Positions 3,483-59,900 of a stretch of 64,000 nucleotides of DNA are shown here, piece by piece (position 1 is the first letter of the stretch; the number at the start of each line of letters is the position of its first letter). Source of the DNA: Antedon bifida. Its lineage: Eukaryota; Echinodermata; Crinoidea; Comatulida; Antedonidae. The position numbers and the translations under genes were made by a program. A model generated the notes under the pieces. The model made no database searches, was not told where the DNA came from, and saw only the letters and a program-made list of their open reading frames with translations. Location of the stretch: positions 9,140,085-9,204,084 of the forward strand of contig OY727103.1 in assembly GCA_963402885.1 (NCBI GenBank), in the 5' to 3' direction.

Positions 3483-4349
3483 TTAATGTTTAAAAGATCT
3501 AAATTGTACATTTATGCCGGTAGGGGCAAGAGTGCCAAGCTTTACAATTATTCTTTCTTCTATAATTCTACGAGATGTCTCAGAACCATTACATACCTTA
3601 ACACCAGAAATTGTAATATCCGAAAGGGAATGCTCATTATTACAAAAATGGGTGGCTACAGGTAATCCGGGAGTCTTAAGTTTAATAGACCTTAAATGTT
3701 CTACAAACCTATCACCTAACCTGCGTTTAGTTTCACCAATATAAAGCATATTACATTTAGTACACGAAATACAATAAACTAGATTTCTAGTGGTGCACGT
3801 AATATGATCTGTGATAACATAATTACCAGAAGGTCCTACTATTTGGTTTGAACATGAAACGTAATTACATGTCGAACATCTATTTCTATTACATTTGAAT
3901 GTTCCAGTTAATTCATTACCTTTGTTTTGTAATTTAGATTTAACTAAAGTGTCTTTAATGCTTTGATCACGTCTGTAAGCTATCATGGGTGGTTCTTGAA
4001 AAATATCTTTTGTAGCGGATTTATCTTCTGTCAAAATTGAAAAGTTATCGCGGACAATGTTAATAACCTTCTTATTCATAGGATGATACGTGAGGACTAG
4101 AGGTATGCGGTCACAAGCATTTGTATTATGTGTAGGTTGCAATGTGTCCTCGTGCGTTAACTGGCAAACTTTTCTTAGAGATTTCACAGTAATGTCAGAT
4201 GGATATTCGCGTGCATTGAAAAAATCAATCATCTCGGATGCTTTGATGTTAAAGTCATCATCATCGCTACATAAACGTCGAAGTCTAACAAGTTGCGAAT
4301 ACGGTATAGCATTTTTACAAGCTGGAGGATGCGAAGATATATCAGACAT
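3483..4349 (-). pseudogene. PLE polyprotein, GIY-YIG endonuclease end
   Basis: An open frame of about 288 residues starting near an in-frame Met at 4349 (the frame runs to 4412 only through TA microsatellite). The first part (NAIPYSQLVRLRRLCSDD) is the linker that precedes the endonuclease in PLEs. The end carries CxxC-type cysteines, the LVYCISC and LYIGET segments and a following R-rich helix, the hallmarks of a GIY-YIG nuclease, with a late Glu in a SRRIIEER segment. This domain nicks DNA to prime target-site reverse transcription. With no RT domain the fragment cannot act alone, although the frame is intact to its stop. Confidence 0.88.
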
Positions 4350-4458
4350 ATATATATTTATAAAAATAAATATATATATATATATATATAAAAATATACA
4401 GTATGCCAACAATGAAAGAAGGATAAAAAGAAAAAAAAATCATAGAGAGAAACAGGTG
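4346..4458 (-). mobile_element. Retroelement 3' tail, proximal part
   Basis: The complement of this stretch (CACCTGTTTCTCTC, then a T-rich run, CATTGTTGGCAT and a TA microsatellite) matches 26490-26580. Together with 2988-3165 it reconstitutes one element of the 26.5-kb family split by the PLE. Confidence 0.7.
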
Positions 4459-30774: not shown

Positions 30775-32178
30775 TGTAATTGGACCTGGGGAGCCGGGAC
30801 GCCCTCTATACCAATAAGTATAACCAAGGAACACAAACACTTGAGTACGGGTACTTCTTTGTCTTTATTCTAAAGCGGTAAAACTGCAAACAAACATAAT
30901 CGATACATAGTCTAGTCACAAACATCATGAATAAAATGATTAATGGATTTATATAGTAAATATGTCAGAATGGTGAAATATTACATTCTCTACAAACAGA
31001 GATTATCAACTGTTTGCAAACTTCAATTTCTTACAATAAAGTTTAGCGTTACGCATAACACTTCAATTACATCAAAACCTATGAACAATCAAATGTAAGC
31101 ATAATAACTGATTATTACAAATAAACTTACAGAGTGTGACTCAACATAATACGGATTCAATCTGAGCGAGCTTCGGGAAGCAAATCACTTGGATAACTTT
31201 AAAGATATATTGTCCCCCTAAAAAAATATTTTTTTAAATATTTTTTTTGAATATGTTATTTTAATGTCAAATAATAGTTATTCACTCTCACAAAAAATTG
31301 GGTCTGAAAAAAATTTATTTACCTGAGAAAAATGTAATTTAAAGCAAAAAATGGTCAAATTGTCTGGAAGACAATGTGTTTTGGGGTAATTTAACTGTTT
31401 ATTTTGTCTTTTTATAGGTGAAATAATTTTTTTCCCCGTTTTTTTTTCTTATGGAAGTGAACAACTTCATTAAAACTGCAAAATGGCCTATTCAAAGTCC
31501 GATTTTAAATTTTTTTTTTTTTTTTTTCATGATTTTGGGGGACAATACATCTTTAAAATTTCTAAAAAGAAACATATTATCACTAAATAATAACGTTGGT
31601 AAACACCGCCCTCAATCTCTAAACTAACTCATAAATATTCATGACTAAGAAAAATCGGCGAGTGGAGGTCCTTTAGCAGAAGCTATAAATGACCAGAAAC
31701 TAAGAAAATTATACGATTAAATTATAACCTTCTAGTGCTTAAAATATATATGGATAAACGCTAGTTGTATTTTAGGCTTAACATACGGCATACAGTGCTA
31801 ACATATGGCATGCAACGATAACATATGTGTACATTCTTCGTTAACGGGAAGCTCGAAACAACGACGAGCCACACCTTGTCATCCTCGTGGTAACATGTTG
31901 GACCAAAGATCCATAAAATTCTTCTAATATAATAAGTAACAGCTAACAAAATAACAACTATCAGATTCTAAGGTAAAAACATAACTACTATATATAGGTT
32001 CCGAAACTCACCAGAAAACATAAAAACGGTGATAAACACAGGTAACTTTGCATCTTAAAGATACATCTTTCAAAGATGACTAATTTGTTAAAAAGAACAT
32101 AACCTTGCGGTAGAGCTAACCTTAGTTAACCCCAGAGGGCGCTACAATCAATAAAACTCCTCAAACGGAGACAGCACA
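30775..32178 (-). repeat. Bel 3' LTR (carries a MITE)
   Basis: Matches 38281-39325 along its length except for a 350-bp MITE plus duplicated TTAA at 31203-31556. Ends TGTAATTGG...CAGCACA as read on the plus strand. Confidence 0.93.
31203..31552. mobile_element. TTAA MITE family B, intact copy inside the Bel LTR
   Basis: Ends AGATATATTGTCCCCC and complement, with TTAA at 31199-31202 and 31553-31556. The sister LTR has a single TTAA at the same point, giving a direct filled/empty site comparison. Confidence 0.95.
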
Positions 32179-32442
32179 ATCCCCCCAGTGATGACCGCAT
32201 CATCACTAAAAATGGAGTGATCGTACCAAGTTACATGAGGGACAACAAAACATAAAACAAGCGCTACTGACTTAACATAAGTAGACCCTTACTTGCTACA
32301 ACCATTAATAACATGAGATATTAAGATACAATCGTATTATTATTATTAAGCTACCTTTAACTTATTTGTTGTTAAAAACCATTATTTAACTAAAACTACA
32401 AAATATGCATTATCTGCTGTAATGCTAACAAATTCCTCCAAG

Positions 32443-32595
32443 CTAGTCTTCAGATGGAATTAATAATATCAGCTCACTTATGGGTCTCAGCATGGTCTTC
32501 TTTCTATCCTCAACACTCATTTCTACGTTCACCTTACGGATATGACCATCTTCAGCGGCTGCTGCGTTCACAACTCTACCCAACGGCCAATCATT
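32443..32595 (-). pseudogene. Bel integrase C-terminal tail, shifted frame
   Basis: After the stop at 32593-32595 another frame continues with NDWPLGRVVNAAAEDGHIRK, the chromodomain-like/SH3-like tail of Pao integrases, to a TAG at 32443-32445. A frameshift separates it from the integrase core. Confidence 0.8.
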
Positions 32596-33492
32596 TCAAT
32601 GAAGGTCATGTTTCACGAGAACGATATCTCCGATCTTCAAATCACGTTTGGTAGTTTGCCACTTTGTACGTGTTTGTAACAAAGGCAGATAATCTTTGCG
32701 CCACTTTGACCAAAACATATTGGCAAGGTGTTGCACACGTCTCCACTGGCTTCGTAATAGGTCGTTTTTATTAAAGGGACCATCTGGAGCCGTCACTGGC
32801 GAAGATTTCATAGTGAGTAACATGCTGGGTGACAAATTCAATGGCAGCTCGGGAATATCACTATCTGGCAAAAGTGGTCTCGAATTAATTGTAGCAGCCA
32901 CCTCTGCCATCAATGTGACAAAGACTTCATGAGTTATCTGACTTGGCTTTACGTCTCTCATGACGCCATCCAATATGCGTCTGGCAATTCCTATCATGCG
33001 TTCCCATGCACCTCCCATATGGGATGCATGTGGTGGGTTAAAAATCCACTCACAGCCATGATCGAGAAGGAACCGTTTAACAGTATCCTTATCGTGTAGT
33101 TCATGGCCTAGCTTACTCCAAGCTCCAACAAAATGTGTTCCACAATCCGACCTGATCTGCTTTGCTGGACCACGGATGGCGAAAAATCGTCGCAGGGCAT
33201 TGATGAAGGAAGAACTATCCATTGATTCCAGAACTTCAATATGCACGCCTCGTGTGGACATGCATGTAAACATCACTGCCCACCTTTTAGCCTGGCAGCT
33301 GGCTCTGGTTTTTCCTCTACTGATTTGAAAAGGTCCGAACACATCAGCCCCTGTAAATGTAAATGGAGGTGCCACACTGACTCTTTCTTTCGGTAGATTT
33401 GCCATAATATGGGTTTCGTGTTTTCCTCGCAGTCTTTTGCATGTCACGCAACCTTGAATTACCTTTGCTACTTGCTTCTGTCCTCCTAACAC
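32596..33492 (-). pseudogene. Bel integrase
   Basis: Carries CVTCKRLRG (zinc-binding end), then the DDE core: ADVFGPF, RSDCGTHF and GGAWERM provide the three acidic residues with normal spacing. Same frame as the preceding RT/RNase H segment, separated only by a TAG codon at 33493-33498. The domain inserts cDNA into the host genome. The core looks intact but the ORF is interrupted at both ends. Confidence 0.93.
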
Positions 33493-33495
33493 CCA

Positions 33496-35139
33496 CTATC
33501 CTTCACTGCGCAACCTTCCAAGCGTTATGTGTCTGCCCTGATGGTTGCATTGTTGATGCAAGTGCTTGATTACGAGATCGGTTATGTGGTTGTTTTTTGG
33601 AAGAATGATAGAATTGGTTGCTCTTTCAGATAACTGAGCATGCTTTAGTCTGCCGCCAACTCTAAGTATTCCGTTTTGATCCAGGTATGGTTGGAGTGCG
33701 ATCAACTTGTTATTTTTTGAAAGTTTCTCCTTCTTCACCTCCTCTATCTCTTTGCTAAAGGTTTCAATCTGAAGGCTTCTTAAAATAGTTGTTTCCGCTT
33801 CTTGGAGATCTCTAGGGGACTTTACCTGTTTATCCTTGCGGCTGGAATTATTTTTCCATGACTTAGCCACACCCTTCAGATTAGATATAGCTCTCTTAAT
33901 GGCCTTCCATGAAGAAAACCTGCTGAACCTATGGTTACCAAGCCCTCTAGAGGGTGTTACGGTCTTCTTACAACTAACGGCTGCTTCAGGATACACCTCA
34001 GGGTCGTTTGCAAGTAACTCAACATCAAATCCCATCATGTCTCCTTCCGCTGCCCGACACGTACGTAAAATCTCCGGCCCTACTATCCACATGGAAGTTT
34101 TTAGATCGGACGCTGGAATTGACCTGGATGCTTGGTCGGACGGGTTTCTCGCAGACGGTACATTCCTCCATTGTCCTGAGGTTGACGTTCGGAGTATTTT
34201 GGAAACACGATTATATACATACGTGCGAAAGCGCCGCTTGCGATTCGTCAGATAACCTAACACTACCTTGCTATCGGTGTAGAAAATTGAATGGTGTATC
34301 TCAATTTTGAGCTCATGTCTGACATATTCTTCGATCTCTGTAGCAAGAACTGATGCACACAATTCGAGTCTTGGAATGGTCGTAGCTGACTTGGGTGCAA
34401 GCTTAGCTTTTCCCATCACTAATCTGACATAAATCTCTCCGTCAGTGCTAACAGACTTTAGGTAGCAAGCTGCACCAATTGCCACATTAGATGCATCGCC
34501 AAAGGTATGGAGTTCCCTTCTTTGTACATATTTCGAGGGGTAAGGTGTGAAAGGCCGAGGTATCTGTACCCCTTCCAGATCCTTCAGGGAGTATCTCCAT
34601 GTCCTCCCGTCCTGTAATAGGTCTTGTGGAAGTGGGTCATCCCAACCAACATTGTCCTTCGACATCTCGCGGAGTAACATTTTCCCCTTGATTATGACTG
34701 GGGCAGCTAGACCCATGGGGTCGAAAACACCATTTACTTCCGACAACACCATCCTTTTGGTACTTGAATTTGGATTCGGTTCTGCTATCCGGAACGTAAA
34801 TGTGTCATCTTGTAGGTTCCAACACACTCCCAGTGTTCGCTGGATTGATTCCAGTTTGGACGTTATTTCATTTTCAACGAAAGAAGCTGCTGGAGCTAAC
34901 TCTTCTGGCTTGAAAGCAGCCAGAACGTCAGGATTGGTAGACGTAAACTTGTGCAGTCGAATATTTGCGGTTGACAGGAGATCTCTTGTTCGTTTCAAAA
35001 TATCAACGGCCTCCTCTACAGTTGGTGGAGATTTGAGCAGATCATCCATAGAGAAGTTGTCATCAATCAGTTGCTTGACATCCATACCAAAAACAGCAGC
35101 TCCTTCCATTCCCGTCTTCCTTAGACCGCTGATGGCCAC
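33496..35139 (-). pseudogene. Bel RT (C-terminal), RNase H and integrase N-terminus
   Basis: Opens at the RT active site: the loop reads NFSMDDLLKS, so the two aspartates remain but the usual Tyr-Val is Ser-Met. Then the RT connection, the Pao RNase H region (TFGDASNVAIGAACY, YTDSKVVLGYL), and the HxxxxH part of the integrase zinc finger near the end (HLHQQCNHQG). Joined upstream by a frameshift and small deletion. Confidence 0.92.
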
Positions 35140-35438
35140 AGCTGGAGATGGTTTATTTCCAAATATATGGACTTATCTTTGAACCACAGAAAACGTAGAA
35201 ATTTCCTGTGATCTTCTCGCACTTTAAATGCGTAAAACATCTGTTCAATGTCACCCGTCACTGCTACTGGTTCTTCGCGGAATCGAATGAGTACTCCGAG
35301 TAACTGGTTCATTAGATCTGGGCCAGACAAAAGAGTGTCGTTTAGCGAAACACCGTTGAACGTAGCACTGAAGTCAAAACCACTCTTAACTTGTCTGGTT
35401 TTTGCGGGTGATACACGCCAAAGTGAGAAAGATACCAA
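35121..35438 (-). pseudogene. Bel RT central fragment
   Basis: Encodes [16 protein letters not shown], then [20 protein letters not shown], the palm block that supplies the first catalytic Asp. A one-base loss in a T-run near 35395 separates it from the upstream frame, and a second break near 35140 from the downstream frame. Confidence 0.9.
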
Positions 35439-38266
35439 GCTTCATCTTCTTCTTTCAGAAACTTATTCTCTACCCTACATGCAAGCCTTTTATCCAGTAT
35501 CTTGCCCATAAAATCAAAGTAATGAGCTTTCTTTTTAGGATCTTTATTCAATGAACTGACGAGCGTCTTCATCCTTTGTGTTGCTTGACACTTGTTGTTG
35601 GGGAGTTTTTGCCGACCTGTTTTGAATGGCAAGGGTGCAACCCAATTTCCAGCTGCATCTTTTACCATCTCTTGACTCATAAGATTAGAAAACTCCAAAT
35701 CTTCAGTTGAAGGGCCTAATTCTTCGTCATCTGCAGTCTGTGTAAAAATGTCTGCACCAAATTGCTTTTCGTGATTTAGGATCTGACATATTTCTACTGC
35801 ATTTTCGCAGGGTCGAAAGTTGGCTGAATTACGTCCATTGGTCAGTTGCGTGTAGTACGTACTGATGGCCTCTTTCTGGTTTGTTAGATCTTGTCGAAGG
35901 TGTGCACCATTTAAACACACTTCTCCTATCACAACCCAGCCAAGATCTAGGCGATTTGCCCAGGGTTCTTGATCTTCTCCGTTTATGACTTTTATAACTT
36001 TGTGGAATTGGGGAGCATCCCTTCCAATCAGAATTAAAACATCTGCGTCTTTCTTTAAAGGTGGTATAAGATTTGAGATTGGCTCCAGATGTTTAAATGC
36101 TTCGGCAGCTTCTGGGGTAGGAATTTCCGACACGTCACCAGGGATACCACTGCATTCGTACAAAGTAAGGGCAGGAATAGAAGATGTTCCGTCCAGGCTT
36201 TCGATGACAAGTCCAGAAACTTTTCTTCCATCAATTTCTTGATAGCCCCCAACAGTCTTTACCATGTAAACATGAGATTCGCATTGTAAGTTCAGGCCAT
36301 CTATAAGTTTGCCACTAATGAGAGATCGATCACTTTGGTCGTCAATCAATACGTACGTTTTAATAATATTAGTAGGATTACTTGTGTGGTACACCTTCGC
36401 GAGACATATTTTTGCGCAGGATCTTCCATGTTTTCGCTGACCACATACTCTGGTACACTTATTGTTTACTTTATCTGCCGTTGTTTCTGTCGGCACCGGC
36501 GAAGGCTTCTGTGGCGATGCTGTAGGAGGTTCTTTTGGGGGCGCTGATGGGGGTTGGTTTGGATTAAGCTCTCGGTGCATGGTCGTCAAATGCGGCTTTT
36601 CACATTTTTCACACTTAACTTGTGATTTGCAATTTCGTGATCGGTGGTTTGGCTTTAGGCACCTGAAGCATAGCCTATGTTCTTTTATTAGTTCAGACTT
36701 TTCTTCAAAAGTCTTGCCCCTGAATTGTCGACACTCCACTAAACTGTGGCTTGTATTGTGTATAGGACACATTGATCCTTTCGGTGGCCCGCTTGTACTT
36801 AATTCCGTTTTTCGGGCAGTGACTGTTGGTTTACGAGAAAACTGTTCTTCTGACTTTGAAGGGTTCAAAGGAAACTCATTTTGTAGTTTAGCTTGGTGTT
36901 GCACAAACTTCACAAAAACTTCAAAGGGTGGAAAACTCACGTTGTTCTTCTCCTTGTATTCTGACCCTTTCGTTCGCCATTTATCTTGGAGTCTCTCTGA
37001 AAGTTTTTGCATTAATGGCAGTAAGCCTGATGCCGAGTCTAGGACCAGTAGACCCGAATATTTCTGTGCATCCTTCGTATACTGGGCTTCTAATAGCAGA
37101 TACCCAAACTGCTCCAATTTTAGATGATCCCAATTGTTGATTTTTGGAAATTCGTTTAATCTTCTTATTAGGTCGTATTCAACAGCTTCAAACGAACCAT
37201 ATTGCCCTTGAAGAATTTCCCACATGCTGGGTAAGCCTACTTCAGGTCTGTCGGTATGGATGCCATGAATTGGTACCAGTGAAGTCCTTGGTTCGTTCTC
37301 TAGGGAATCAAGGATAAGGTCCATTTCCTGGAAGGCTTTCAGGTCTAAATCTTTTGTTGCTTGCTTGAAGCTGGCTTTCCACGCCCTGAACTCGGATATC
37401 TTCCCACTGAACTTCCTTATCCCACTCCTTATTAGGTCTTTTCGCACCATCATGTTGCTTATTGAATTAAGGTTTTCTTTCAATAAAGGAGTCTCATTTG
37501 GGTTCAACTCGACCTTAGGTGGAACAGGCAATTGAACAGATGCTTGAGTGTGAGGCTGAAATTGTGTTCGAACCGGTAGCTGTGATGCTGGCTGAAACTC
37601 AGGCTGTACAGAAGGTTGCATTGTCACTTCAACTGGGGATTGTACGGGTGCTCGAAACGCTGGTTGAGACTGAGGCTGAACAGGAGGTTGCATTGTCACT
37701 TCCACTGGGGATTGTATGGGTGCTCGAAACGCTAGTTGAAACTGAGGTTCGACAGGCGATCGCATTGGTGCCTGCACAGGCAGTTGCGCTGGTGCTCCAA
37801 CCGGGGATTGCACGGATGCTTGAATACTCGGTTGAAACTGTGGTTGAGCAATTGGATGGAACCTTGCCTCTAGCGGCTCAGTTGGACCATCAGCAGGAAA
37901 AAAGACATCTGCATCTGTCAAAAGGTATTCCTGCACTCTGACTGCTGGATCTGAAACCGGAATTCCAAGATCTCGAGACGAATACCAACCTATGTCTTTT
38001 TCTTCTGCAGCTGCTTCCAGAACTTCAGCTTCAGCTTCCGCCATTGCCAAATCCTTATCTGCTTCAAGGAGCAGCATGGCATTTGCAATCTGTTGTTCTT
38101 TAGCTTTTAAAGCAGCTTCTTGGTGAGCAAACTCCCTTCTTGTCTTCAGTGCCTCGACTTTAGCACGGGCTCGTACCGCTGCTGAACTCATTCTTGACTG
38201 GTGGCTTGACCTACAGGAAGGTGCCTTTCTTCTTTTGACATCAAGAGAATCTCCTTGCATATCCAT
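35342..38266 (-). pseudogene. Bel gag, protease and RT N-terminus
   Basis: Start taken at the ATG at 38266, just outside the 5' LTR; the frame extends to 38341 only through LTR sequence. Order: coiled-coil-like Ala/Glu-rich N-terminus, a Pro/Gln repeat region (APVQSPVEVTMQPPVQ-type), a Pao gag block (FSGKISEFRAWKASF), a zinc knuckle CFRCLKPNHRSRNC, the aspartic protease loop near YVLIDDQSDRSLIS, and the RT start ([15 protein letters not shown]) where the frame is lost. An unbroken frame of about 970 residues. Confidence 0.92.
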
Positions 38267-38280
38267 CGTAGAATCAGTAC

Positions 38281-39325
38281 TGTGACCTGGGGAGCCGGGA
38301 CGCCCTCTATACCAATGAGTATAACCAAGGAACACAAACACTTGAGTACGGGTACTTCTTTGTCTTTATTCCAAAGCGGTAAAACTGCAAACAAACTTAA
38401 TCGATACATAGTCTAGTCATAAACATCATGAATAAAATGATTAATGGATTTATATAGTAAATATGTCAGAATGGTGAAATATTACATTCTCTACAAACAG
38501 AGATTATCAACTGTTTGCAAACTTCAATTTCTTACAATAAAGTTTAGCGTAACGCATAACACTTCAATTACATCAAAACCTATGCACAATCAAATGTAAG
38601 CATAATAACTGATTATTACAAATAAACTTACAGAGTGTGACTCAACATAATACGGATTCAATCTGAGCGAGCTTCGGGAAGCAAATCACTTGGATAACTT
38701 TAAAATTTCTAAAAAGAAACATATTATCACTAAATAATAACGTTGGTAAACACCGCCCTCAATCTCTAAACTAACTCATAAATATTCATGACTAAGAAAA
38801 ATCGGCGAGTGGAGGTCCTTTAGCAGAAGCTATAAACGACCAGAAACTAAGAAAATTATACGATTAAATTATAACCTTCTAGTGCTTAAAATATATATGG
38901 ATAAACGCTAGTTGTATTTTAGGCTTAACATACGGCATACAGTGCTAACATATGGCATGCAACGTTAACATAGGTGTACATTCTTCGTTAACGGGAAGCT
39001 CGAAACAACGACGAGCCACACCTTGTCATCCTCGTGGTAACATGTTGGACCAAAGATTCATAAAATTCTTCTAATATAATAAGTAACAGCTAACAAAATA
39101 ACAACTATCAGATTCTAAGGTAAAAACATAACTACTATATATAGGTTCCGAAACTCACCAGAAAACATAAAAACGGTGATAAACACAGGTAACTTTGCAT
39201 CTTAAAGATACATCTTTCAAAGATGACTAATTTGTTAAAAAGAACATAACCTTGCGGTAGAACTAACCTTAGTTAACCCAAGAGGGCGCTACGATCAATA
39301 AAACTCCTCAAACGGAGACAGCACA
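38281..39325 (-). repeat. Bel 5' LTR
   Basis: 1045 bp, without the MITE found in its partner. Followed on the right by TACAC and the 37-bp minisatellite. Confidence 0.93.
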
Positions 39326-41174: not shown

Positions 41175-42646
41175 TTAAATACCAAGCTGTTCATTATTAA
41201 AATATTCTTTAAGTTTTATTTTGAAGGTTGCATTATTTTGTATTGATTTGAGTGAATTGGGGAGCCTGTTCCAGTCACGGATACCTAAGAAATAAAAAGT
41301 CGTATCATTAACGCCAGTAGCCTTAGGAGTGACAAAATTAAATGTTGTACCCCTGGTGAAATGGTTGTGATGATCAGAAATTAACAAAAAGTTATCCTTA
41401 AGGAAAGAAGGCGTATTAAAGTTATAACGAATTTTGTGAACATAATTTAATCTTAAAAACTTATTTCTGAGGCTGACATTAAGAAACCCAAGATCGGAAA
41501 GCTCTTTGGCACCTATGTGAGACCTCGGACCAACATTTAAAATGAAACGTGCCATCTTGTTTTGGGCAGTTTGTAATTTATGTTTAAGATTCTTATTGAC
41601 ACCGCCGTACCATGCCGAGGCAGAATAGTCAAATGTACATTGTATTAAAGCAGTGCTTAATAGTTTACGACATTTTTTATTCAAGCACGAACTTTGCCTA
41701 TGTAAAAACTTCAACCTTGACTTAACTTTACTGATAACACTAGTTGCAATGATATCACATGATACATATTGGTCTAAATCAATACCCAAATATTTAACTT
41801 GCTTAGTACTTTTGATTCTACGGCCCATTAATTCTACAAAAAACTCTTTTACTTTGTTAAGCTTCGCTCTGCTACCAAAGATAATACTTTCGGTTTTGCC
41901 AACATGTAAAGATAATTTGTTTTCAGTTAACCAGTCCTGGCACTTAGCTAGGACAGTACTTAATTTATGAGCGATTTTGGTGGCATCGTGATGAGAATAC
42001 AGAATCGTAGAATCATCAGCATAAAGCAATAATTGAACATCAGAATCAATACAAGAAGCAATATCATTTAAATAACATAGAAAAAGAATAGGGCCCAAGA
42101 TGCTACCTTGCGGTACACCATGAGTAACTATAAGAGGTTCAGAGCAGGTACCATTCACACTGACAACTTGTGTGCGGTTAGCGAGATAAGATTGAAACCA
42201 GTCAGTACACTTAAAACCCATGCATTTTAGCTTGTTAATTAAAATCACATGATCGACGGTATCGAAAGCTTTTTGTAAGTCAATTAGAACCATTCCAGTA
42301 AGAAGGCCTTTGGACTTATTGTTTTTTAAACCGTCGATGAGATTTATGAGGTTGCTTTCAGTTGAATGGGCCTGCCGAAAACCGGATTGATAGGCATAAA
42401 GTATATTATTTTTGGAAAGATACCTTTCAACTTGTATAGCTACAGATTTTTCAAGAATCTTAGATACCGTAGGCAGAATACTAATCGGCCGATAATTCTC
42501 AACATTTGTTCTAGTATTTTTCTTAAATAGAGGGGTAACTTTAGCAGTTTTAAGATCATGAGGAAAACAATTAGTTTTAAACGAAAGGTTAATGATATGA
42601 GCTATCGGTTCAGCCAAGATTATCGCACCGTCACGTAAGAATCTTG
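41175..42646 (-). pseudogene. LINE reverse transcriptase and C-terminal region
   Basis: About 490 residues of LINE protein: ENYRPISILPTVSKILE, QSGFRQAHSTESNL, DLQKAFDTVDH, HGVPQGSILGP, an intact YADDS active site near 42015, then the thumb and a C-terminal region ending near EYFNNEQLGI. The open frame continues upstream into transposon DNA (to 42983), but that part is not LINE sequence. Within this piece the frame is unbroken, so the LINE was fairly young when hit. Confidence 0.93.
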
Positions 42647-42647
42647 A

Positions 42648-42720
42648 CACGGTGTCTTCACTATTGACAAAAAGTCCTATATCGCTAAACAAAAAAACTA
42701 TAGAGGGCGCGCTCTCATGC
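42648..42720 (+). repeat. Left terminal inverted repeat, 12-RSS-like
   Basis: Heptamer CACGGTG (42648-42654), spacer of exactly 12 bases, nonamer ACAAAAAGT (42667-42675), then ACTATAGAGGGCGC. The canonical vertebrate signal is CACAGTG and ACAAAAACC: 6 of 7 and 7 of 9 match. Confidence 0.85.
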
Positions 42721-44501
42721 AAACCTCTGAGTAAACAAGACAACACATGTGAATATTTAATGAACTTTGTCGACCAATAGATTTGTGTTAATTCACGATA
42801 TCGCTGAATATTCATGAGAATAAAACAGTTGGTGACGTAAAAAAACTTGTAGAACCCGTATTCAAGGTTGCACGCTGTCACATTGTTGGAGAAGGTCGAT
42901 ATCAAGGTATGCCCTTTAATTTTTATGTTTTTACATGAAAATGTGCATGATTTTTGGGTAATGAAGGATACATTGTTTTCCACCAGTGATTAAAACATAA
43001 TTTAGATTAATATAATGAGAAATTATTAAATAACGTGTATGAAAAGTAAAAATTTTTTGTTATGGTTAGTTTTTTTTCTACGATGCCGTTTGTACACCCT
43101 TCGCCCCTGGGAAGAGTGTATACCGTGTAGTGGGCCTAGCGCGTATGCGCGCCTGAGAATTGATCATTTCACGACGTTTCGCTTTCAGATCTTGCACTAT
43201 GTCTAGGCCTAGCTACACGTGTGTATGTAAATAACTAAGGAAAGCACTATATTATTACTGTAGGCCTAATTCTTTTTTATTTGTTAATTCGGCTTATTAT
43301 AGTAGAAGAAAAATTAACATTATTGAACAGCATAATAATAATAAAATAGAATAATAATATAGGCCTAGCTAGGCCTAAATAGACCAAGCTAGTACTAGGC
43401 CTAGAGTAGTACTAGTAGGCCCTACTACAACTACTAGTAGTACTAGCCTAGGTTGTCTTGTAGGCCTAAGCCTAATAATATTAATATTATTAGTATGTAA
43501 AACATTTAAATAGTAAAGGTAGGCAATACATAGTATAATATGTAGGCCTAGGCTAATTAATAATATATAAAATAAGTTCAGCTTTAGGCATTGTTAATGG
43601 TAGGGTTAGACTTAAACCATGGAGTTTTCTTTACTCCATTATAATATATATATATATATTATATAATTTATATATAACAATAAATTCTTCGAAAATCAAT
43701 AATTTTATTCAACCAGTCAATAAATAATTGGTGTTATTTACATTTTAACATGGCTACTTATTAAATTTAATTAAATACAATTCAAATCATAATAAAAATA
43801 TGCATTTCTTATTGCATCATTTATAAATTCTTCAAAAATCATCTATAAACCTTGATAATTCTTTAATTTATAACCAGTCATTAAATAAATGAGTGTTTGG
43901 TGTTATTTAAATTTTTAAAATGGTTTTTAATTTCATTATCAATATCATAAATTAAAAACCTGCATTTGTTTTTTGCAACATACATTTTTTTTAAATCATC
44001 AATAAACCTTGTATAGGATATTTTATTTGTAAATTTTTTACATACAATAAATTCTCATTCTTTAATCACAATGACAAATTTTGACGCAGTTCTCAGGGAA
44101 TAATTTCACCAGTGTAGCATAGCAAAAAGCTTCACAAAACAACTTTATTGCTAAATTATGTAGTAAAAAATGCAACTACAAAACTATGTTTCTCGACTAA
44201 AAAATCAGTTTGATTATCAATAATATTGCAAAAAAAGTGTTGAAATGAAAATTTTCCCTGCTTCTTTATTTACAAAAAACTCTCTGTTTATACTTGCAAC
44301 ACAAAAATTGTGTTACTGTCTGCAAGTCCATGTCAATTGAATCTTCATTCTTCAGTACCTACAATAAATAAATTATTAATAACATTGTTGACTAAATAAT
44401 TGTTGCAAATACTTCTGTAATTAATCATATACCAGAATAATAGAAATAGAAAATGAGAATAAAAACAATTCAAAAACATATTTAGATGTCTAATTACAGT
44501 T
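42721..44501. other. Non-coding interior of the RAG1-related transposon
   Basis: No frame of note. TAGGCCTA words at about 43360-43460, a TA palindrome near 43650 and AT-rich filler. It probably corresponds to 3' non-coding sequence of the element. Confidence 0.6.
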
Positions 44502-44819
44502 TCATTCTTCATTATACTTACTGTGTTTTCTTTTTTTAGGTGGAACTATTCTGTGATGGATTTCGGGGACTGTGTACACCATGTGATTTTTCATTATGGA
44601 TTCCATTTTCTTGCCTTCTGAATTGACGCCATGGACGTTGCGGCTCTGTCGATTGAATGCTGCATGAATTTGCTCGCCACCTTGCTCACTGAGCAAGCCT
44701 AGTCCAACATGCCATCTTCGAAGGGTTGGTACAACATGCACCTCCAACATGTGCAGTTTAGGTGAGATGTTATAACTTGACATTCTGGATACAAAAGTGT
44801 GTCCGAGCACTTTTGGCAT
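44502..44819 (-). pseudogene. Transposase C-terminal fragment with catalytic-Glu block
   Basis: Only the part from about 44760 leftward is meaningful: SPKLHMLEVHVVPTLRRWHV, then GLGLLSEQGGEQIHAAFN. It aligns in pattern with the RAG1/Transib end, where a histidine-rich helix precedes SEGNESGNKLF carrying the third catalytic acid. The first part of the frame overlaps the RING fragment in another frame and is noise. After the motif there is a Lys-rich tail and a GTAAGT that could be a donor. The two catalytic Asp blocks expected upstream are missing. Confidence 0.75.
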
Positions 44820-45430
44820 CTCAGCTCAACCGTTAGCAATGATTGCTGGCTTAGTTTCGATGGTGATTTCACATCAACAATGCAAACAGGAGACAAACAT
44901 TGAAGACAAGGAATTACATCTGCTTTTAGTGTACAAAACAGTTGGGACAAACAATTTGCACAAAAAGTATGGCAACATTTAGTCTCTAACATAGACAGAG
45001 ACATAACATCATTACATACTTTACAGACATAAATATCATCAATAGCACTGTTTTTTACTTCAAATTGACTGTTTAATGAAGGTGATGAATTGTCAGGCTT
45101 ACAAAATGTACCATTAAGATTTCGTGATCGCTGATTATGTTTCTTCATAGATCCGTGAATGTACTGATTTGTAAATAAAAAGCATGTCAAACATGATGAT
45201 TGTTTATGACTTGTCCATTTGTATGTTGTTATCGGCTTGAATTTGTAACATTTTGATGTACAAGTAGCACAAATAAAGTTGGGGTGAACATTTTGTACAG
45301 ATTCAATCAGATTGTAATATGGAAGAATGTCAGATCTTAAGTTCAGAATATTTGTTTTTGTATCATTTTTTTTAAATCTACAACCACATAAACGACAGAG
45401 ACCTGTCATATAAGAAATATGAACATCCAT
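44699..45430 (-). pseudogene. RAG1-like N-terminal zinc/RING protein fragment
   Basis: 243 codons. Residues 12-83 resemble the RAG1 zinc region before its RING: C12xxC15, VHPNFICATC (C54, C57), then W72, H75 and C80xxC83, in the order seen in RAG1. Residues 136-178 are a textbook C3HC4 RING (C136, C139, C152, H154, C157, C160, C175, C178). It continues with DVKSPSKLSQQSLLTVELRC and a CxxC...H, matching the RAG1 segment after its RING (ESPVKSFLSVLNSL). In RAG1 this region is a ubiquitin ligase and dimerisation unit. Downstream the frame leaves conserved sequence at about residue 224, where an internal deletion joins it to the transposase end in another frame. Confidence 0.87.
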
Positions 45431-45949
45431 ACCTTTTTACAAAATATTTACAATACATTAACATACAAATACCATCTCAGCATGCAGCATTAGCCTAGGC
45501 TAGCTTGAAAATATTGAGCAAGTTTAGCAGTCAATTTCTACGATTTTAACCATAACAAAATTGTTGTTTTAACATATGTTGTTGATAAAGATGAAATGAG
45601 TCGGTCTGCAAAAATTCGGAACATGAACTGGTGGCTGTCACGTAAAACAGACGATCGTATTTAGCGCCCCATTATTCTAGGTGGCGCTGTTCATATAATT
45701 TGTTTATTCAAAACAAAAGGCGATATACAATACAAATTGCACCAAAACGAACGTTTTCTTTATTTTTAGTTTTAATATGCTGTTTATAATACATAAAAGT
45801 ACAAATTTATTCAAAGAAATGCGTTATATATAATATCAGTTTTCTAAAATATACAATCTAGTACGTCTAATAATATAAACAAATCGACGGCGTAATCGCA
45901 AAACTCGCTGGTCACGCTCTACTGATCACGCAAGCTGAATAAAGGTTAT

Positions 45950-46012
45950 GAGAATGCGCCCTCTATAGTACAGTACTTTTTGTCTGTATCGCCTATAGTT
46001 GAAGACAGCGTG
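45950..46012 (-). repeat. Right terminal inverted repeat, 22/23-RSS-like
   Basis: Read inward on the minus strand: heptamer CACGCTG (46012-46006), spacer of 22 bases, nonamer ACAAAAAGT (45983-45975), then ACTATAGAGGGCGC. The ten extra spacer bases relative to the left end are about one helical turn. Confidence 0.85.
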
Positions 46013-46168
46013 TTGAGGGAATATTATCTAGACCGACGCTTTTGTTTACATTTAGGCTTTCGAGTTGAGTTTTAACAAATTCTATGGTAACAGGCTCTAG
46101 CTTAAACATTTTTCCTTTTAATTTAACATAGTATTTAAGAAGATCGTTAGTGGACATGGTGAAAAAAC

Positions 46169-47310
46169 CTATGCATTTTGGGAGTTTTTTGACGAGTGTT
46201 GACGCAACATTCGTGAAAAACTCATTAAAACGAGAGGCAACGCCTTTTGGACAGAAAGTTTGTTTACCATTGTCATCGAGAACGATTTTAGTGTTTGTTT
46301 TACATTTCTTCTCGTATCCGAGCTGTTTGAGGGTTTTCCATAATTTTTTAGGGTTGTCTTTATTTTCATCAATCTTATTGAGAAAATAATTAGATTTAGC
46401 TTTTTATTGATCAGCCGCTGAGCTTTGTTCCTAGAGGTACAATAATATTTGTATATATCTAGATTAGATTTATCTTTCTTGAATTGTTTTAAAAGTGTGT
46501 CTCTTACTTTGATTTCATCGGCAATTTCGGAGGTAAACCAGGGTGCTATGTTTTGTTTAAGTCTAACTTTTTTTATTGGCGCTATTGAGTCGATCACCTT
46601 AATGATGATATCTTTAAGAGTTAACCACGCGATATTTACATCGACATTATTAGTGACAACAGACCAATCGATATCGTTAAGTGTTTCAAGATAGTTATTT
46701 ACATTATAGTTTTTTAAAGATCGTAATTTTGCGGAGTTGTGTTCATTTTTATGAACATGAGACTTAGGTATTTTTCTAGTGCAATAAATAAGAAAATGGT
46801 CACTAAGGCCAATGTTAATTACTCCAGATTGCTTCACATTATTTTGTACATTAGTAACAATGTGGTCCAAACATGAGCTTTTTTCTTTTCCTATTCTAGT
46901 TATATCCTTAATAACATTACTAAAACCATTTCTTATAAGGCAATCATTATATCTTTGCGATACTGGATTAATATTTAAAGTACATATGTTAAAGTCACCA
47001 AGAATATAAATTTCACTACTCTCTTTGATTTTTGATACAGTTTTTTCAAAGTTGTTCTGAAATAAAGTTACATTCTGTTTTGGTGGGCGGTAGCATGTAC
47101 CAATCACAATTTCCTTTGAACGAGGCAGATATATATTTATCCAAATTGCTTCAAAATCGTCGATATCCAGATCATTTCTACGTGTGAAGGCGCGTTCATT
47201 TTTTACGTAGATACAAACTCCACCACCAGACCGGTTTCTGTCCTTCCTGAGCGCTGTATATCCATCAATTTTGATCTCGTTATCGGTGATGGATTCGTCC
47301 AGCCACGACT
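46169..47310 (-). pseudogene. LINE endonuclease domain
   Basis: The frame is open from 47310 (no Met; the 5' end is truncated) and reads SWLDESI, YTALRKDRNRSGGGVCIYV, IGTCYRPP, LGDFN and GLSDHF, the ordered blocks of an EEP endonuclease. After about 46410 a frameshift diverts the annotated frame; the correct LINE sense continues in another frame to 46017 with a KSVGLDNIPS-type segment that adjoins the RT. Confidence 0.9.
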
Positions 47311-47610: not shown

Positions 47611-48342
47611 ATTTGTTAATTTGTCAATAAAAATGCTGTAATATGTTACTGCTGATACTGTTCTGTTTTCAAAGAATAATAATCGATTCTAAATCAACAT
47701 CACTAACTAGCCTAGACCTACAGTAGGACATCCTACTAAGGATATTATGATGATTTTTTTCTATTTTATTCTTTAAAACGTTAACGAAACCGTGTACAGT
47801 ATCAACAGTAACATTTTTCCTTACTGACAGTGACAACATCTATTGAAATTGTACGTGATTTTTACCAAATAATGCTGGCATTTAGGGGTGAAGTACAAAA
47901 TAATTGGAATTGTACTGGGAAAAGTTACTACATTTGAACTGTCCTAGGGAGGGTGGGATGGGGAGAGGAGAATTCTATATTTTAAAGATTTTTTATAGAA
48001 CGCAGATATGTATTTAATTATGTTTTCATTAAATAAATAAATAAATCAGGCTTGGTAGGCATAGAGCGCATTATGCTAAAGCCCCAAAATATATGTTTTG
48101 GGCATTTAGATTTTTGTCTATTTTATTCTACAGGAGCATAGTGGGAATTGCCAACTAACTCAATTTCAACAGTCGACTTAAACTAAACACAAATAAATCA
48201 AAACGACAACGTTCATAGCATAAAAGTTTTTTCGAGTTCGGGATATTTTCTTCGTATTGGAACAGAAATACGTGTAACTGGTACACGGAATTGCAAAGAC
48301 AACTATGGTAAAAATAACAATATAATATTCTTAAGAATAGTA
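47611..48342. other. Flank and leader of the gypsy element
   Basis: No 5' LTR matching 51987-52161 was found. From roughly 48130 the sequence may be the untranslated leader of the element; no primer-binding site was recognised. Confidence 0.4.
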
Positions 48343-48891
48343 ATGGAAGCAGCAGAAAAGAATACTGAACGTTTAACTAAGCATTCATCAAATGATGTGC
48401 AAATCAATGCATTTACTCATCACAACAAGCAATCTTCACCGAAGAATGCTTCACCGAGTACATATCAACCAAAAAAGTCGTACTCACAGTTTAAACCGAA
48501 ATATCAGCGTACTTGCCGGAACTGTGGAATAAATCATCCACCTAAATCATGTCCAGCTTTTGGCAAACAATGCCATAACTGTCGAAAGTTAAACCATTAT
48601 GCTAAGTTGTGTCGGTCGACACGTGTCCATGAAATACAGGACTATGAAACAGAACACGAACATATAACACAGTCACATGGATCCTTCATTATCGATGAAG
48701 TAAAAGACCTTGCCAATAATGAAGCAACTGTTAAAGCAACTATAAACAAACAACGCTTGCAGTTAAAGCTGGATACTGGTGCAAAATGCAATATACTCCC
48801 TCTAAACATTTTAAACAAAATCGCACCGAACGCACAAATTGATAGTGCTGATACAGCTACACTAGTATGCTTTGGTGGAACTAAGCTCTAA
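48343..48891 (+). pseudogene. Gypsy gag nucleocapsid and protease
   Basis: 182 codons: basic linker, then two zinc-binding knuckles (CRNCGINHPPKSC and CHNCRKLNHYAKLC) at about residues 57-90, then the aspartic protease with LKLDTGAKCN around residue 145. Ends at a TAA inside the protease; the sense continues in the next frame segment. Confidence 0.9.
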
Positions 48892-48909
48892 AGTCCAGGA
48901 ACTGTTAAA

Positions 48910-49734
48910 TTGATGTGCAGAATCGCTAATACTCAACAGATTACACAATTCAGAATAGTTGACAAGCACACATCTGCTATTTTAGGTCTTAAAGACTGTA
49001 TGCAGTTCGGATTGCTAGCCTTCAGCAACGATGTCCATGAAGTCACAGATAGAACATTTTCTGACGAAATACTGACAAAGTATCGAGATCTGTTTGACAC
49101 AACATTGGGTAAGCTACCAGTAACTTACCACATAACAGTAAATAAAGAAATAGACCCAATCGTCAGACCACCACAAAAGGTTCAAATCGCAATGAAAGAC
49201 AAAATTATTAACGAACTCAAATGCATGACTGATCAAGGGGTAATATCAGCAACTAATGAACCAACACCATGGGTATCGTCTATGGTGGCAACACACAAAA
49301 AAGGAACTGATGAAATTCGCTTGTGTATAGACCCACGTGACCTGAATAAGGCTATCAAACGCCCTCATCATCCAATGCGCACATTAGAACAAATAGCTGC
49401 TGAACTTGAAGGTGCTACTATATTTTCAGTACTTGATGCAAAGTCATCATTTTGGCAGATCCCTCTTGATGATTACTCTTCGAAATTAACAACATTCAAC
49501 ACGATCATTGGTCGATACAGGTTTCTCAGGATGCCGTATGGCATAAGTTCGGAATCTGAAGTATTTCAGAGAACAATTGAGGACCTTTTTATAAACCTTC
49601 CATGTTTCATTGCCGTACACAACATCCTTGTCTATGGGAAGACTCGGCTTGAACATGATGCAAATCTTAAAAAGATACTAGACAGAGCGTGGAGCATTAA
49701 CTTAAAACTTAACTCTGCCAAATGTCGATTTTGA
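48910..49734 (+). pseudogene. Gypsy reverse transcriptase
   Basis: Begins in the protease tail (HTSAILGLKDC), then RT: GVISATNEPTPWVSSMVA, IRLCIDPRDLNKAIKRPHHP, FSVLDAKSSFWQIPLD and RFLRMPYGISSESEVFQ. The catalytic loop that should read YxDD is VHN here, so both aspartates are lost. Ends with a TGA where a Cys codon is usual. Confidence 0.92.
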
Positions 49735-49779
49735 GTTAACGAAGTCACATACCTTGGTCACGTATTTTCAGGCAGTGGC

Positions 49780-50493
49780 ATGAAGCCAGACCCAAAGAAA
49801 GTAGCAGCAATAATTGACATGCCTGAACCAGAAGACATTACAGCCTTGCAGCGATTTCTAGGTATGGTTAATTATCTTGCAAAATACATACCTGATCTTA
49901 GCGACCTCGCCACCCCTCTCAGACAGCTGACACGAAAAGACATAGCATGGCACTGGCAAGAGAATCATATCAATGCCTTTCCCACAATCAAAACAAAGAT
50001 CGCAGAAGCACCAACACTTAAATACTTTGATGTTACTAAACCCATTACTTTGACATGCGATGCTTCAAAATTTGGTCTTGGGTGTGCCTGCTTACAAGAC
50101 AAAGGTCAAATTGCTTATTCATCAAGGACAATGACCAGCGCCGAACAGTGCTATAGCCAAATCGAGAAGGAACTTTTAGCCATAGTTTGTACTTGTAACA
50201 AGTTTAAAGACTATATCTATGGGAAGCAAATAACTGTTGAAACAGATCATAAACCCCTGATCACTATAATGAGGAAGCCTATACATGCTGTCCCAGCTCG
50301 TCTTCAAAGAATGCGCTTACAATTACAGAAATATGACATTAACCTTTTATATAAGCGTGGAGCAGAATTATATGTAGCAGACACTCTCTCTGTCGAGCAC
50401 CACTTGCCAATTCTGCCCAAAGTAATGATGAAGCAGAGTATTTCGAAGTTATGTCTGCCCTACAAATATCAGAGCCCAGACAAGAAGAATTAG
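49780..50493 (+). pseudogene. Gypsy RNase H region
   Basis: Continues the RT thumb (LQRFLGMVNYLAKYIPDLS) and carries the Ty3/gypsy RNase H blocks TLTCDASKFGLGC, YSQIEKELLAIV and VETDHKPLITI with expected acidic residues, ending in the linker to integrase (RGAELYVADTLS). Confidence 0.92.
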
Positions 50494-51416
50494 CAACTGC
50501 TACACAAAACAATACTACACTGCAGCGACTCAAAACAACGATTCAACAAGGTTGGCCTACAAAAATCCAATGTGTTCCTCAGGAAATTCGAACATTTTTT
50601 CCATACCGCGATGAACTTTCCATTCAAGATAATGGTGTAATATTAAAAAGCTTGAAAGCTATAATCCCAGAATCGTTACACAACACTTACACTAAATTGT
50701 TGCACGAAGGTCATCCCTCAGCAGACGCAACAAAACGTCGCGGAAGAGACATAGTTTTTTGGTCCAAAATGAGCTCTGACATAGATCAATATGTCCAGTC
50801 ATGTTCAGTATGCAATAGCATGAAACCACACTTACAGAAGGAACCGCTACAAAGCTATCCAACTCCAGAAACACCCTTTCAAACCATCGGTGTTGACTTA
50901 TTTGTTTGGAACGACTTCAACTATTTAGCGATTGGAGACTCCTACTCTACATGGTTTGATTTCTGTTCCCTACCTAACATAACAGCACATGCGGTAATCC
51001 TTAAACTAAAGAGCAGATTCGCTACTCATGGTGTACCCATGAACATAATCACTGATAATGCCAGACAGTTTGACTGCCCAGAATTTCGTGCTTTCGCCAC
51101 TGAATGGAACTTTCATCATATCACCAGCAGTCCAACCTTTCCACAATCAAATGGATTAGCGGAAAGCGCTGTCAAACGTGCAAAAATACTTCTTGAGAAA
51201 ACCAAACGCGAAAGCTCCGATTTATACAAAAACTTATTAAATATTCGCAACATACCAACCACCCCTAGTTTAGGATCACCAGCTCAACGTCTCATGTCGC
51301 GAAGACTTCGAACTCCAATACCAACATCACAACCGCTCTTAAACCCACAAGTTATTACTAATGTTACAAACTCTCTAAACCACCGTCATACCATCCATAA
51401 CAAAGAAGTCTTATGA
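50451..51416 (+). pseudogene. Gypsy integrase
   Basis: Zinc-finger part HEGHPSADATKRRGRD with CSVCNSMK, then the DDE core: TIGVDLF, IITDNARQF and SNGLAESAVKRAK retain D, D and E. The C-terminal tail continues in another frame to about 51755. Confidence 0.92.
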
Positions 51417-56454: not shown

Positions 56455-56984
56455 CTAATCTTCTAACTGTTCAGCGACAAAAGTCATCGCATTCGCCTTT
56501 AAATCTCCGATAAAAGACTGTAATTTGTCCTCTCTAATGACACCCATATGCTCAAGGTTCAATATCAAAATCCACTGGTTATAACATTGTTCATAAGAAA
56601 CATCGTTTAGATGACGGAGCTTTGTTATATTTTCTTTCGAAAGTGCGTTGCCGAATTTAATCAGCTTTTGTCGATACGGCGAGAAAGATTTTACTGGACG
56701 ATCCACTTCATCGTACTTCTTCTTTAGCAGTGCGTTGATTTCAAGAACACCATTGGTTCCAGTGATATTAATCATATCTACAATGACGTCAATGTTGGTA
56801 GTGGTAAGATGGCCAGAGGATTTCAATAAATTGAATAATTCCATCGTGCTTTTTGTCTTTTGTAGATCACTGTAAGATGTTATTAGGTCTTTGCACAAAA
56901 CCTTCAGTTTATCAAGGACACGATGCTTATCATACCAGCTTGATACTTGTACCAACATTGCCTGACATTCTTTCTCGGTTGATT
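56455..56984 (-). CDS. Gene B terminal exon with tandem death-effector-like domains
   Basis: About 176 residues, acceptor TTGTACAG. The first half reads VLDKLKVLCKDLI, then MELFNLLKSSGHLTTTNIDV and VDMINITG, the helix 2 to helix 5 pattern of a death-effector domain (LKFLC..I, LF..L...G.L...N). The second half (YRQKLIKFGNALSKENITKL, then LNLEHMGVIREDKLQSFI) has the same layout. Such domains recruit caspase-8-like and FADD-like partners. The RxDL motif is not obvious, so the exact death-fold class is uncertain. Confidence 0.75.
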
Positions 56985-59900
56985 CTGTACAAAGGAACAA
57001 AAAAACAATTATTATTTGTTTGTATAAATTGTATAAAGCATAGTTTTTTTCATATAGTTTTTTAGATTATGATTAGAAATTTATGAAACACAGTAATATA
57101 ATAATAAATGTCTACTTCAATACAACAATATAAACTACCCAATGTATTTATTCAACAGTATTTGTGTTAATAATTGATATAACGATCATAAATTTAAGTG
57201 TATCATCGTTATCATTATCTACTCTGATATTATAATGTCTTGTTCACCATCACCATATCATTATATCCTTATCTACTTTAGCATACTACCTTGATTTGAA
57301 CTATAACACAATAACATCTGTAACAAATAAACTATACACCAAGTATTTCCATAAAGAATAGAAATTCCAGAGTCGTTGTGTTGCATGTTAAAATACATCC
57401 AATCCAAGGTCACCAACGAAAAAATGTAATGTATTTGTGTTAGAATTATGTTTACAAGGTTGAGCTGCAAATCGTAAATTCAACGCAAATCGTAACACTT
57501 AATCTTTAAAACCCTTATAAATTAACGCAATTCGTTAAATAAAAATATGTGTCCTAATACTAAAACATTAACTAAAAAAACATAAAATCAAGTGATTAAT
57601 TTGTTGATCAATATCATTGGTAAAAATATCTGGGATAATTATGATACATACGGTCATACAAACATCTAGATTGTAGGTCTATTAGCAAATTTCATGAATA
57701 TAAAACTTGTCGTTACATTATGCAATACCATAATTTAGCAATTACTTTCAACACTTTGCACTCTACACCTTAACCACGACGAAGCTTCAAAATTATAACA
57801 TTCTCTTACCTATTTTAAAAATTGGCGGCCATCTTTTTTAACGTCAAATTTTGAAACTTTGTGGTAGTCTGATTTGAGTAAACTTTTGATATATGTTTTT
57901 TGAGACCATATTTTATTGTAATACATCAAAAAACATTAGGCCCTATATTTTCATATTTTGACCCGACTATTGACAATTGTTTGTTTCTAGATTGTCACTC
58001 ATAAACCGTAAAAGACATGGAAAATGGTTTTGGTAGTGTTATATATTATTTTATCATTAAAAAACAATCTCTAACACAACACAACAAAACAAAACAAATG
58101 TGAACAAAATGCAGGACATAACGCAAAGCGGTTAAAAATAGAAAAAAAAAAACTTGAATTACAAACTAAATGGTGTCTTTTCAAAAGAGTTTTTAAAACT
58201 TCTGCTAGTCATAAATAATACTAATAGTATAGATACCTTGATGTCCTTGTGATGGCACATGCACTCGTACTATCTCTGGCACATGCACTGGTGCTACCTC
58301 TGGCACATTCACTGGTGCTACCTCTAGTACATGCAATGGTACTACCTCTGCCATATGCACTGGTGTTACTTCTGGTACATGCACTGGTACTACCTCTGGC
58401 ACATGCACTGGTGCTACCTCTGGCACATGCACTGGTGCTACCTCTGGCACATGCACTGGTGCTACCTCTGGCACATGCAATGGTACTACCTCTGGCATAT
58501 GCACTGGTGTTACTTCTGGTACATGCACTGGTACTACCTCTGACACTGGCAAATACTCTGGAACATGTTCTTCATTTGCCCTAGGCACCGAGTCTAGCTC
58601 TGATTCTGGCACTAGCTGATTCTCCTGGTTAGCTTCTGACTCTGATTCTTAAAAAAGAAATTTGATTTATTGTTTATTAATTCGCAAAATTTGTGAACAT
58701 TAGGATATATGTTTGAAATTGTAAAATTGTGAAACGTTTTCGGGTTTCAAAACTTACTATTCATTGCCCTCTGACATCCATCCATTAACTTTGGGGTTGA
58801 TTTTTTTTAATTAAATAATTGTAATAGTAGCATTATGATTTTTATATAATTATAATATTTGAGATACTGTACAATGAAAAATTATTGAGTATAACTATTT
58901 ACTTCTACTTGTATATTCCGTATTTTATCTTAATAATCTATGTTTGAATGCTCGCTACCATTTATTATTCGGGTGAGATGGTCATGTTTTATGTTTCTGT
59001 GCATTTGTTAGTGAATTTATCAAACTTGGTTTGCATGAAGTAGATGAAACAGATCATTAAGTACATAAATAAAGATCACTGTTTCATCATGACAATAACT
59101 ATATCATTATCTTTATCTACTGGTAATTTACCTTCACTTGGATGACTTTGGCGACTTAGTGGTGTGCCTTTGTTTTTGTCATAATTGCCTAAAAGTAATC
59201 AAAGTGCGATGTTACATTCAACATTGTAATTATCAAAACGTGTCCTATATTTGCACGCAATGTTGTAAAATTGTTTATACGTATCAACAAATACCATCAG
59301 GCAGTGATGGTTTATCAAAGGTTTTAGAATTCCATTGACACCCTATGTAATGCAATTAATTATTATTTTAATAAATGTCAATTATCAGTTTTCGCAACAA
59401 CAAAGGAACAACAGAGGAATAATCTCTTGATGTGCAAATATGGTAAAAGAAGTTTTAAAAAGCAGGAGACCGATAATGCTATTGCTAATATATTACAATT
59501 GATAGTTGGTAACGTAATAGATACTGATCAGAAATGTTATATTAAAGGAAGCTTCGCTGGTGAAAACAGGACTTGTTTAAATTGTACTAGAATACACAGA
59601 TAAATTGTCATTTGGTTCATGTCAGGATCCAATACATTGGGTTGAGACTCTCGATTACAACGAATAATGGATCATTAGAAAGGATTTTAGAAGAATATTG
59701 GTATTATACAAGGAAATGGCTATACATGTAAGAAGCAACAAGAGGTTAAAATTTCTCAGTTTGATGACAATACAATACTTTTGTCTAGACAGAAAAAAGG
59801 TATTTAAACTTTAAACTTAAAGAAAGTAGACTTGTTTTGTAAGGTTGCCTGTTATCACAAATATACACTTTCAATCAAAATGAAAAACCAAAGAATGTAG

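Follow-up and report, generated by a model that had tools for sequence, protein, structure and literature searches.

Chapaev-type transposons of the crinoid Antedon bifida with RSS-like ends of short and long spacing

We analysed a stretch of 64,000 nucleotides from the genome of Antedon bifida (hereafter the window), and identified at positions 42648-46012 a non-autonomous Chapaev-type DNA transposon of 3365 bp, with its gene on the minus strand and CAC/GTG ends. Each end holds a CAC heptamer-like word and an A-rich nonamer-like word, separated by 12 bp on one side and by 22 bp on the other, in the manner of the recombination signal sequences (RSSs) of V(D)J recombination. Other Chapaev families of the same genome keep these or nearly these lengths over spacer letters that have diverged, and the short and long RSS-like ends of these transposons look as though they have been maintained, presumably for a function. 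The element is probably a recently mobile, internally deleted cut-and-paste transposon with two-part ends, which moves in trans by the pairing of a short with a long end.

The short-spacer end, at the 3' side of the gene, comprises CACGGTG (42648-42654, plus strand), a 12-bp spacer (42655-42666) and ACAAAAAGT (42667-42675); the long-spacer end, at the gene 5' side, comprises CACGCTG (46006-46012, minus strand), a 22-bp spacer (45984-46005) and again ACAAAAAGT (45975-45983). These words and spacers lie where a sequence-only reading of the window had placed them. The heptamer-like words differ from CACAGTG by one and two mismatches, respectively, and ACAAAAAGT from ACAAAAACC at 2/9 positions. 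A subterminal ACTATAGAGGGCGC is common to both ends (42697-42710 on the plus strand, 45956-45969 on the minus strand). The left end contains a second A-rich word at spacer 34 that is as RSS-like as the one at 12, so that the spacer of 12 is there a choice; the word at 34 is disfavoured as the true partner, because two of the families described below, F1 and F7, have a single best word, at 12.

The element splits a long interspersed nuclear element (LINE; 41175-47308, minus strand), identified by its reverse transcriptase (RVT_1, 3.1e-36) and endonuclease (Exo_endo_phos, 5.3e-6), the frames of which lie on either side of positions 42648-46012, themselves transposon and not LINE. The transposon is flanked by a target-site duplication TTGA (42644-42647 and 46013-46016), and joining the LINE flanks minus one TTGA copy yields the unbroken frame NVNKSVGLDNIPSRFLRDGAIILAE. 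Among the removals tried (0, 3, 4 and 5 bases), only that of four bases restores the LINE frame; thus, the limits of the element are exact and its duplication is 4 bp. Two further copies share the same 3365-bp limits and are flanked by different 4-bp repeats.

We identified these copies by scanning the 315.6-Mb genome (27 contigs), in which the left 73 bp gave four matches, all at 100%, and the right 73 bp five, of which one was at 97% and the others at 100%. The length of 3365 bp is shared by three copies, namely that of the window, an identical one on contig C14 and one with four differences on C11, and their near-identity implies that the family was recently mobile. Two longer copies, on C1 (its far end within N) and on C14 (13,637 bp, including inserted DNA), carry approximately 2.9 kb extra at element position 2129, which corresponds to the junction 44776-44777 of the window. 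The four complete copies are flanked by TTGA, ACCA, ATTA and TTGG, that is by 4 bp in 4/4 cases. Spacers are 12 in 4/4 left ends and 22 in 5/5 right ends, in copies that are almost identical.

The extra 2.9 kb contain the catalytic core of the transposase, and since this is present in the long copies and absent from the window, the window copy is an internally deleted, non-autonomous Chapaev. Its truncated protein is encoded on the minus strand in two parts. The N-terminal part (44776-45430, within the open reading frame (ORF) 44699-45436) has a CRLCG zinc module, then a C3HC4 RING and a further CxxC; the C-terminal part (44502-44776, in another frame), recognised by alignment with the relatives P0002, P0003, P0005, P0006 and P0007, retains H(4)H as HMLEVH and the region of the catalytic E as SEQGGEQIH; nothing else of the DDE core remains. 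The C3HC4 spacing and the CRLCG module can be seen in the expected order, but Pfam matches of the ORF are weak (RING models E 0.012-0.035; RAG1_imp_bd E 0.035), all below the curated cut-offs. Of the RAG1-like zinc/RING region announced by the sequence-only reading, the C3HC4 form is present, with weak Pfam matches and in a truncated protein. In the relative P0003, zf-AD (7.4e-5) and RAG1_imp_bd (1.3e-4) also fall below the curated cut-offs, and a RING profile compared with the PDB gave RING E3 ligases, with no RAG1 among the matches listed.

When the N-terminal ORF alone served as the protein query, 46 candidates were scored and none reached E<=0.01. A padded query returned one of 329, P0001 of Anneissia japonica, which is likewise a crinoid; it is 68% identical over 76 amino acids of the RING region. 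A chimeric query returned seven relatives from 5536 candidates, P0001 among them, and four of the seven (P0002, P0003, P0004 and P0007) carry DUF1280. In several of the proteins, a T-x-G-R-P-like motif, reminiscent of GGRPR in RAG1, is followed by basic residues between RING and core, and the core of one relative is predicted to adopt a RAG1-like fold. The relatives align in DDE order with C(2)C, LH and H(4)H, the residues given for Chapaev in PMC4079192 (this and the other papers named below by PMC number are cited from the available parts of their text). Searches by tblastn with P0001-P0007 located the core exons within the extra 2.9 kb of the C1 and C14 long copies, whose frames contain both aspartate motifs (IKFGGDKGGG and FFFGDYDFL), CLFC, PCLHISLG, HMLEVH and SEQGGEQ, and so the DDE core with C(2)C, LH and H(4)H.

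Because the copies of the window family are almost identical, we examined other Chapaev families, found with P0001 (at least 107 matches; 96 of 240 candidates scored). F1, with an N-terminal protein 55% identical to that of the window, is represented by two 5834-bp copies, 100% identical and flanked by CACG and AAAT, with ends CACGGTA-12-ACAAAAAGC and CACGGTA-22-ACAAAAAGC. F7 (32% identical; duplication ATGG) has CACGGCA-12-ACAAAAAGT and CACGGCA-21-ACACAAAGT, and F5 (30%; AGTT) has CACGGCT-13-GAATTAAGT and CACAGCT-23-AGAAAAAGT. F11 (27%; ATAA), a 6239-bp element in locus L102 (C16:8230500-8240499) found with CAC ends, a match of terminal inverted repeats (TIRs) and a 4-bp repeat as sole search criteria, has CACCACT-12-AAAATAAGC and CACCACT-23-TAACTAAGT. 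The target-site duplication is therefore 4 bp in all four, including both copies of F1, and the long spacer exceeds the short one by 10, 10, 9, 10 and 11 bp in the five families with both ends. Spacer letters of F1 match those of the window at 7/12 and 11/22 positions, and inner spacer letters are identical at 6/17 between the window and F1 and at 1/7 between the window and F7, whereas the A-rich word is kept at 8-9/9. Measured against V(D)J-type lengths (12 ± 1 and 23 ± 1 from CAC heptamer to A-rich nonamer), the window family and F1 agree, both at 12/22, F5 (13/23) and F11 (12/23) fit with weak words, and the 21 of F7 is two short of 23.

Single ends gave spacers of 22 (F9), 23 (F4), 22 (F2) and 12 (F3, assigned by location), and a possible long end of F10 at C10:16899779 is likewise assigned by location only. 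The spacer comparison leaves aside the gene-3' ends of F4 (L117), F9, an F7-like copy in L104 and F2, the gene-5' end of F3, and the ends of F8, F10 and F13; no end was seen in the examined copies of F6. A search of 12 sequences for end pairs, with a 14-base TIR and a 4-bp repeat, gave pairs with 12-13/14 identical bases in the window and in L102, L110 and L111, which we accepted. Extra pairs in L108 (one), L113 (one) and L111 (two) reached 10-11/14 and were considered spurious, those in L108 and L111 also being in conflict with the limits from copy comparison. We additionally observed that the F9 copies in L107, L108 and L109 border on repeated DNA at their gene-5' limit in all three loci, and that further repeats of approximately 480-500 bp lie on the other side.

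Genome scans in which the gap was left free gave matches at a few lengths. The pattern CACGGTRTCT-N{3,30}-GACAAAAAG had 10 matches, seven at spacer 12, three at 22 and none at the 26 other lengths; CACGGCAGTTTC-N{3,35}-AMAAAGTG had 11, four at 12, five at 21 (two of which, L095 and L096, share a flank) and two at 16; and CACAGCTGTTTC-N{3,35}-AAAAGT had 26, all at 23, in eight distinct strings with as few as 9/18 inner spacer letters in common. Reversed patterns gave no matches for the second and third scans. A scan of viral contigs found 56 stretches with a 14-mer; in two, CACNNTGT stands no more than 60 bases upstream, which we judged to be chance, and two further viral-contig scans gave no matches.

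For each end we also made 4000 shuffles inside its first 12 bases, and scored how often a single best word that equalled or bettered the observed one arose at 11-13 or 21-24. This occurred in at most 0.025% of shuffles for each spacer range in the window left end, in 0/4000 for the window right end and the F7 short end, in 0.05-0.3% for both F1 ends, the F7 and F5 long ends and the F4 end, in 1.9-2.9% for the F9 end, and in 4-9% for each F11 end and the F5 short end, which carry little weight alone. These figures are flattering, as the consensus word was taken from the same ends. F3 entered the test as a 27-base match string, in which the best offset of 10 is a truncation artefact and ACAAAAAG stands at 12.

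From the lengths kept over diverged letters and the predicted RAG1-like fold, we infer that the transposase binds the A-rich word and that it needs a short-long pair. The RAG1-fold transposase would be supplied by a longer relative within this genome; it would recognise every end at two sites, the CAC-heptamer/TIR at the terminus and the A-rich word further in, and would pair a short-spacer end (12-13) with a long-spacer end (21-23), approximately one helical turn apart. It would then cut the element out and join it with a 4-bp stagger, and deleted copies such as that of the window would be mobilised in trans.

Several observations weigh against this reading. The reversed control of the GACAAAAAG scan gave 23 matches, so that the spacing counts as evidence in that scan and the number of matches does not. 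All free-gap scans require the A-rich word, making ends that lack it invisible to them, and the copies of any one family do not count as independent; in the CACAGCTGTTTC scan, only a few of the 26 places lie in inspected copies (of F4 and F5), most being unchecked as transposon ends. Two of the 11 CACGGCAGTTTC matches have spacer 16: this end, in L118 (C1) and L119 (C8), is 4 bp longer than its relatives, and the two share a flank and therefore represent one insertion copied with its surroundings, which we do not count as a family of counter-examples. Ends within one family are homologous, so the sample consists of families, five with both ends, rather than of copies. The short-end word of F5 is weak (5/9, three tied places), as are those of F11 (6/9 and 5/9), whose short end moreover stands at the gene 5' side, the reverse of the arrangement in the other families. 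The predicted model has a mean predicted local distance difference test (pLDDT) score of 60, with the N-terminal third below 50. A candidate reader of the A-rich word is the basic, GRP-like stretch that separates RING and core, for which no profile supports homology to the RAG1 nonamer-binding domain: profiles of the region from 3 and 7 sequences matched no RAG1 in the PDB, and no sequence match to that domain was found.

An alternative is phylogenetic inertia, in which the ends would descend from one ancestral pair with few indels, and the A-rich word and the lengths would have no role in pairing. The outermost bases are indeed alike between families, the ends are homologous, just five families have both ends known, and the lengths shift by one or two bases (12-13, 21-23). 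Inertia does not readily account for a word that stays at 8-9/9 beside inner letters that are nearly unrelated, or for the divergence among the eight strings at exactly 23, and we regard it as unlikely. Coincidence of A-rich DNA in a single copy would draw on the abundance of such words in the window, where 102/1373 CAC sites have, at a spacer between 10 and 35, one that departs from ACAAAAACC by two mismatches at most, and on the second left-end word at 34. The 9-mer recurs, however, exactly or with one letter changed, at the same or near spacing in other families, and 10/10 and 26/26 scan matches fall at fixed lengths. We reject chance because the family comparison repeats both word and spacing, and we give it almost no credence.

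The CAC termini, the RING/zinc N-terminus, the 12/22 ends and the RAG1-like fold predicted for a relative's core might also be taken to mark a true RAG-like (RAG1L/RAG2L) or Transib transposon, directly related to the source of vertebrate RSSs. Duplications of RAG, RAGL and Transib are 5 bp (PMC7204232), whereas they are 4 bp in the four complete copies and removal of five bases breaks the LINE frame; the transposase, moreover, aligns with DUF1280/Chapaev-type proteins, and in the PDB its profile finds RAG1L no better than at E 0.83. Membership of RAG, RAGL or Transib is rejected for the window family because both duplication length and transposase class differ, and we hold it to be very improbable. 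The element agrees instead with the RING-bearing subgroups of the Chapaev superfamily (CMC group) in its CAC/GTG termini, in a duplication within the 3-4 bp of Chapaev (here 4 bp), in the C(2)C, LH and H(4)H of the DDE core of its long copies and, with Pfam scores below the cut-offs, in a putative zinc module followed by a RING (PMC4411706, PMC4079192). The available text of both papers makes no mention of bipartite ends whose A-rich word lies at 12 in one and at 21-23 in the other, and a literature search that did not extend to Repbase Reports found no description of 12/21-23 RSS-like ends in Chapaev and no paper on Chapaev that also speaks of a nonamer. Thus, RING-bearing Chapaevs with 4-bp duplications were already known, and the 12/21-23 spacing is the apparently undescribed part.

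Among other systems, Transibs share heptamer- and nonamer-like words with these ends, and a few have 12 and 23 ± 1 spacers (PMC8355894), but they have a 5-bp duplication, no RING and, in most families, symmetric ends (PMC8289069). ProtoRAG shares asymmetric bipartite ends and, with RAGL, a RAG1-fold transposase, but its spacers are 27/31 and its inner word is not A-rich (PMC8289069); RAGL and ProtoRAG further differ in their 5-bp duplications and in having a RAG2-like partner as a feature. The N-RAG-TP of Aplysia, likened here by description only, is also a transposon with a RAG1 N-terminal-like region (PMC8355894). V(D)J signals share the CAC heptamer, the A-rich nonamer and a short and a long spacer that differ by about one helical turn, and differ from the present ends in that the latter are 12/22 (12-13/21-23 across families), have one or two mismatches per word in the window and are transposon ends, not gene-segment borders. 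The proposal from sequence alone that the element is a RAG1-related candidate for the ancestral 12/23 arrangement is partly supported: its 12/22 ends are confirmed, and the class of the element is Chapaev and not RAG, RAGL or Transib.

Elsewhere in the window, we identified a Pao/BEL-type long terminal repeat (LTR) retrotransposon at 30799-38311, with Peptidase_A17 in 33496-35172 and, at about 30.8 and 38.3 kb, LTR-like stretches that resemble each other, and a second retrotransposon on the plus strand at 48187-51416, with a CCHC-like region (by eye) and a reverse transcriptase (RVT_1). A minus-strand ORF at 3483-4439 (318 amino acids) had no Pfam match at E<=0.001, and its end region resembles a GIY-YIG endonuclease of a Penelope-like element. 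Another minus-strand ORF, at 56455-57066, matches a death effector domain (E 1.3e-7, below the curated cut-off) and is possibly an exon of a host gene. Positions 1-2000 show a strong GC skew (0.32) and an AT skew of -0.36, and are perhaps a tandem repeat.

The origin of the 12/23 arrangement is debated, asymmetric ends being regarded either as ancestral or as dependent on the later evolution of RAG2 (PMC8289069, PMC8355894). We tentatively suggest, as a possibility and with considerable doubt, that a 12/23-type bipartite end pair is old in the whole Chapaev-Transib-RAG superfamily, that the RING-bearing, RAG1-fold Chapaev transposase obeys a short-with-long rule, and that the V(D)J 12/23 rule would then predate the RAG transposon and be an inheritance, not an innovation that came with RAG2 or arose in vertebrates. 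With a RING N-terminus that is absent in Transibs, 12/22-23 RSS-like ends over deep divergence and near-identical recent copies, these sister-lineage transposons would offer a natural test system for the pairing rule outside vertebrates.
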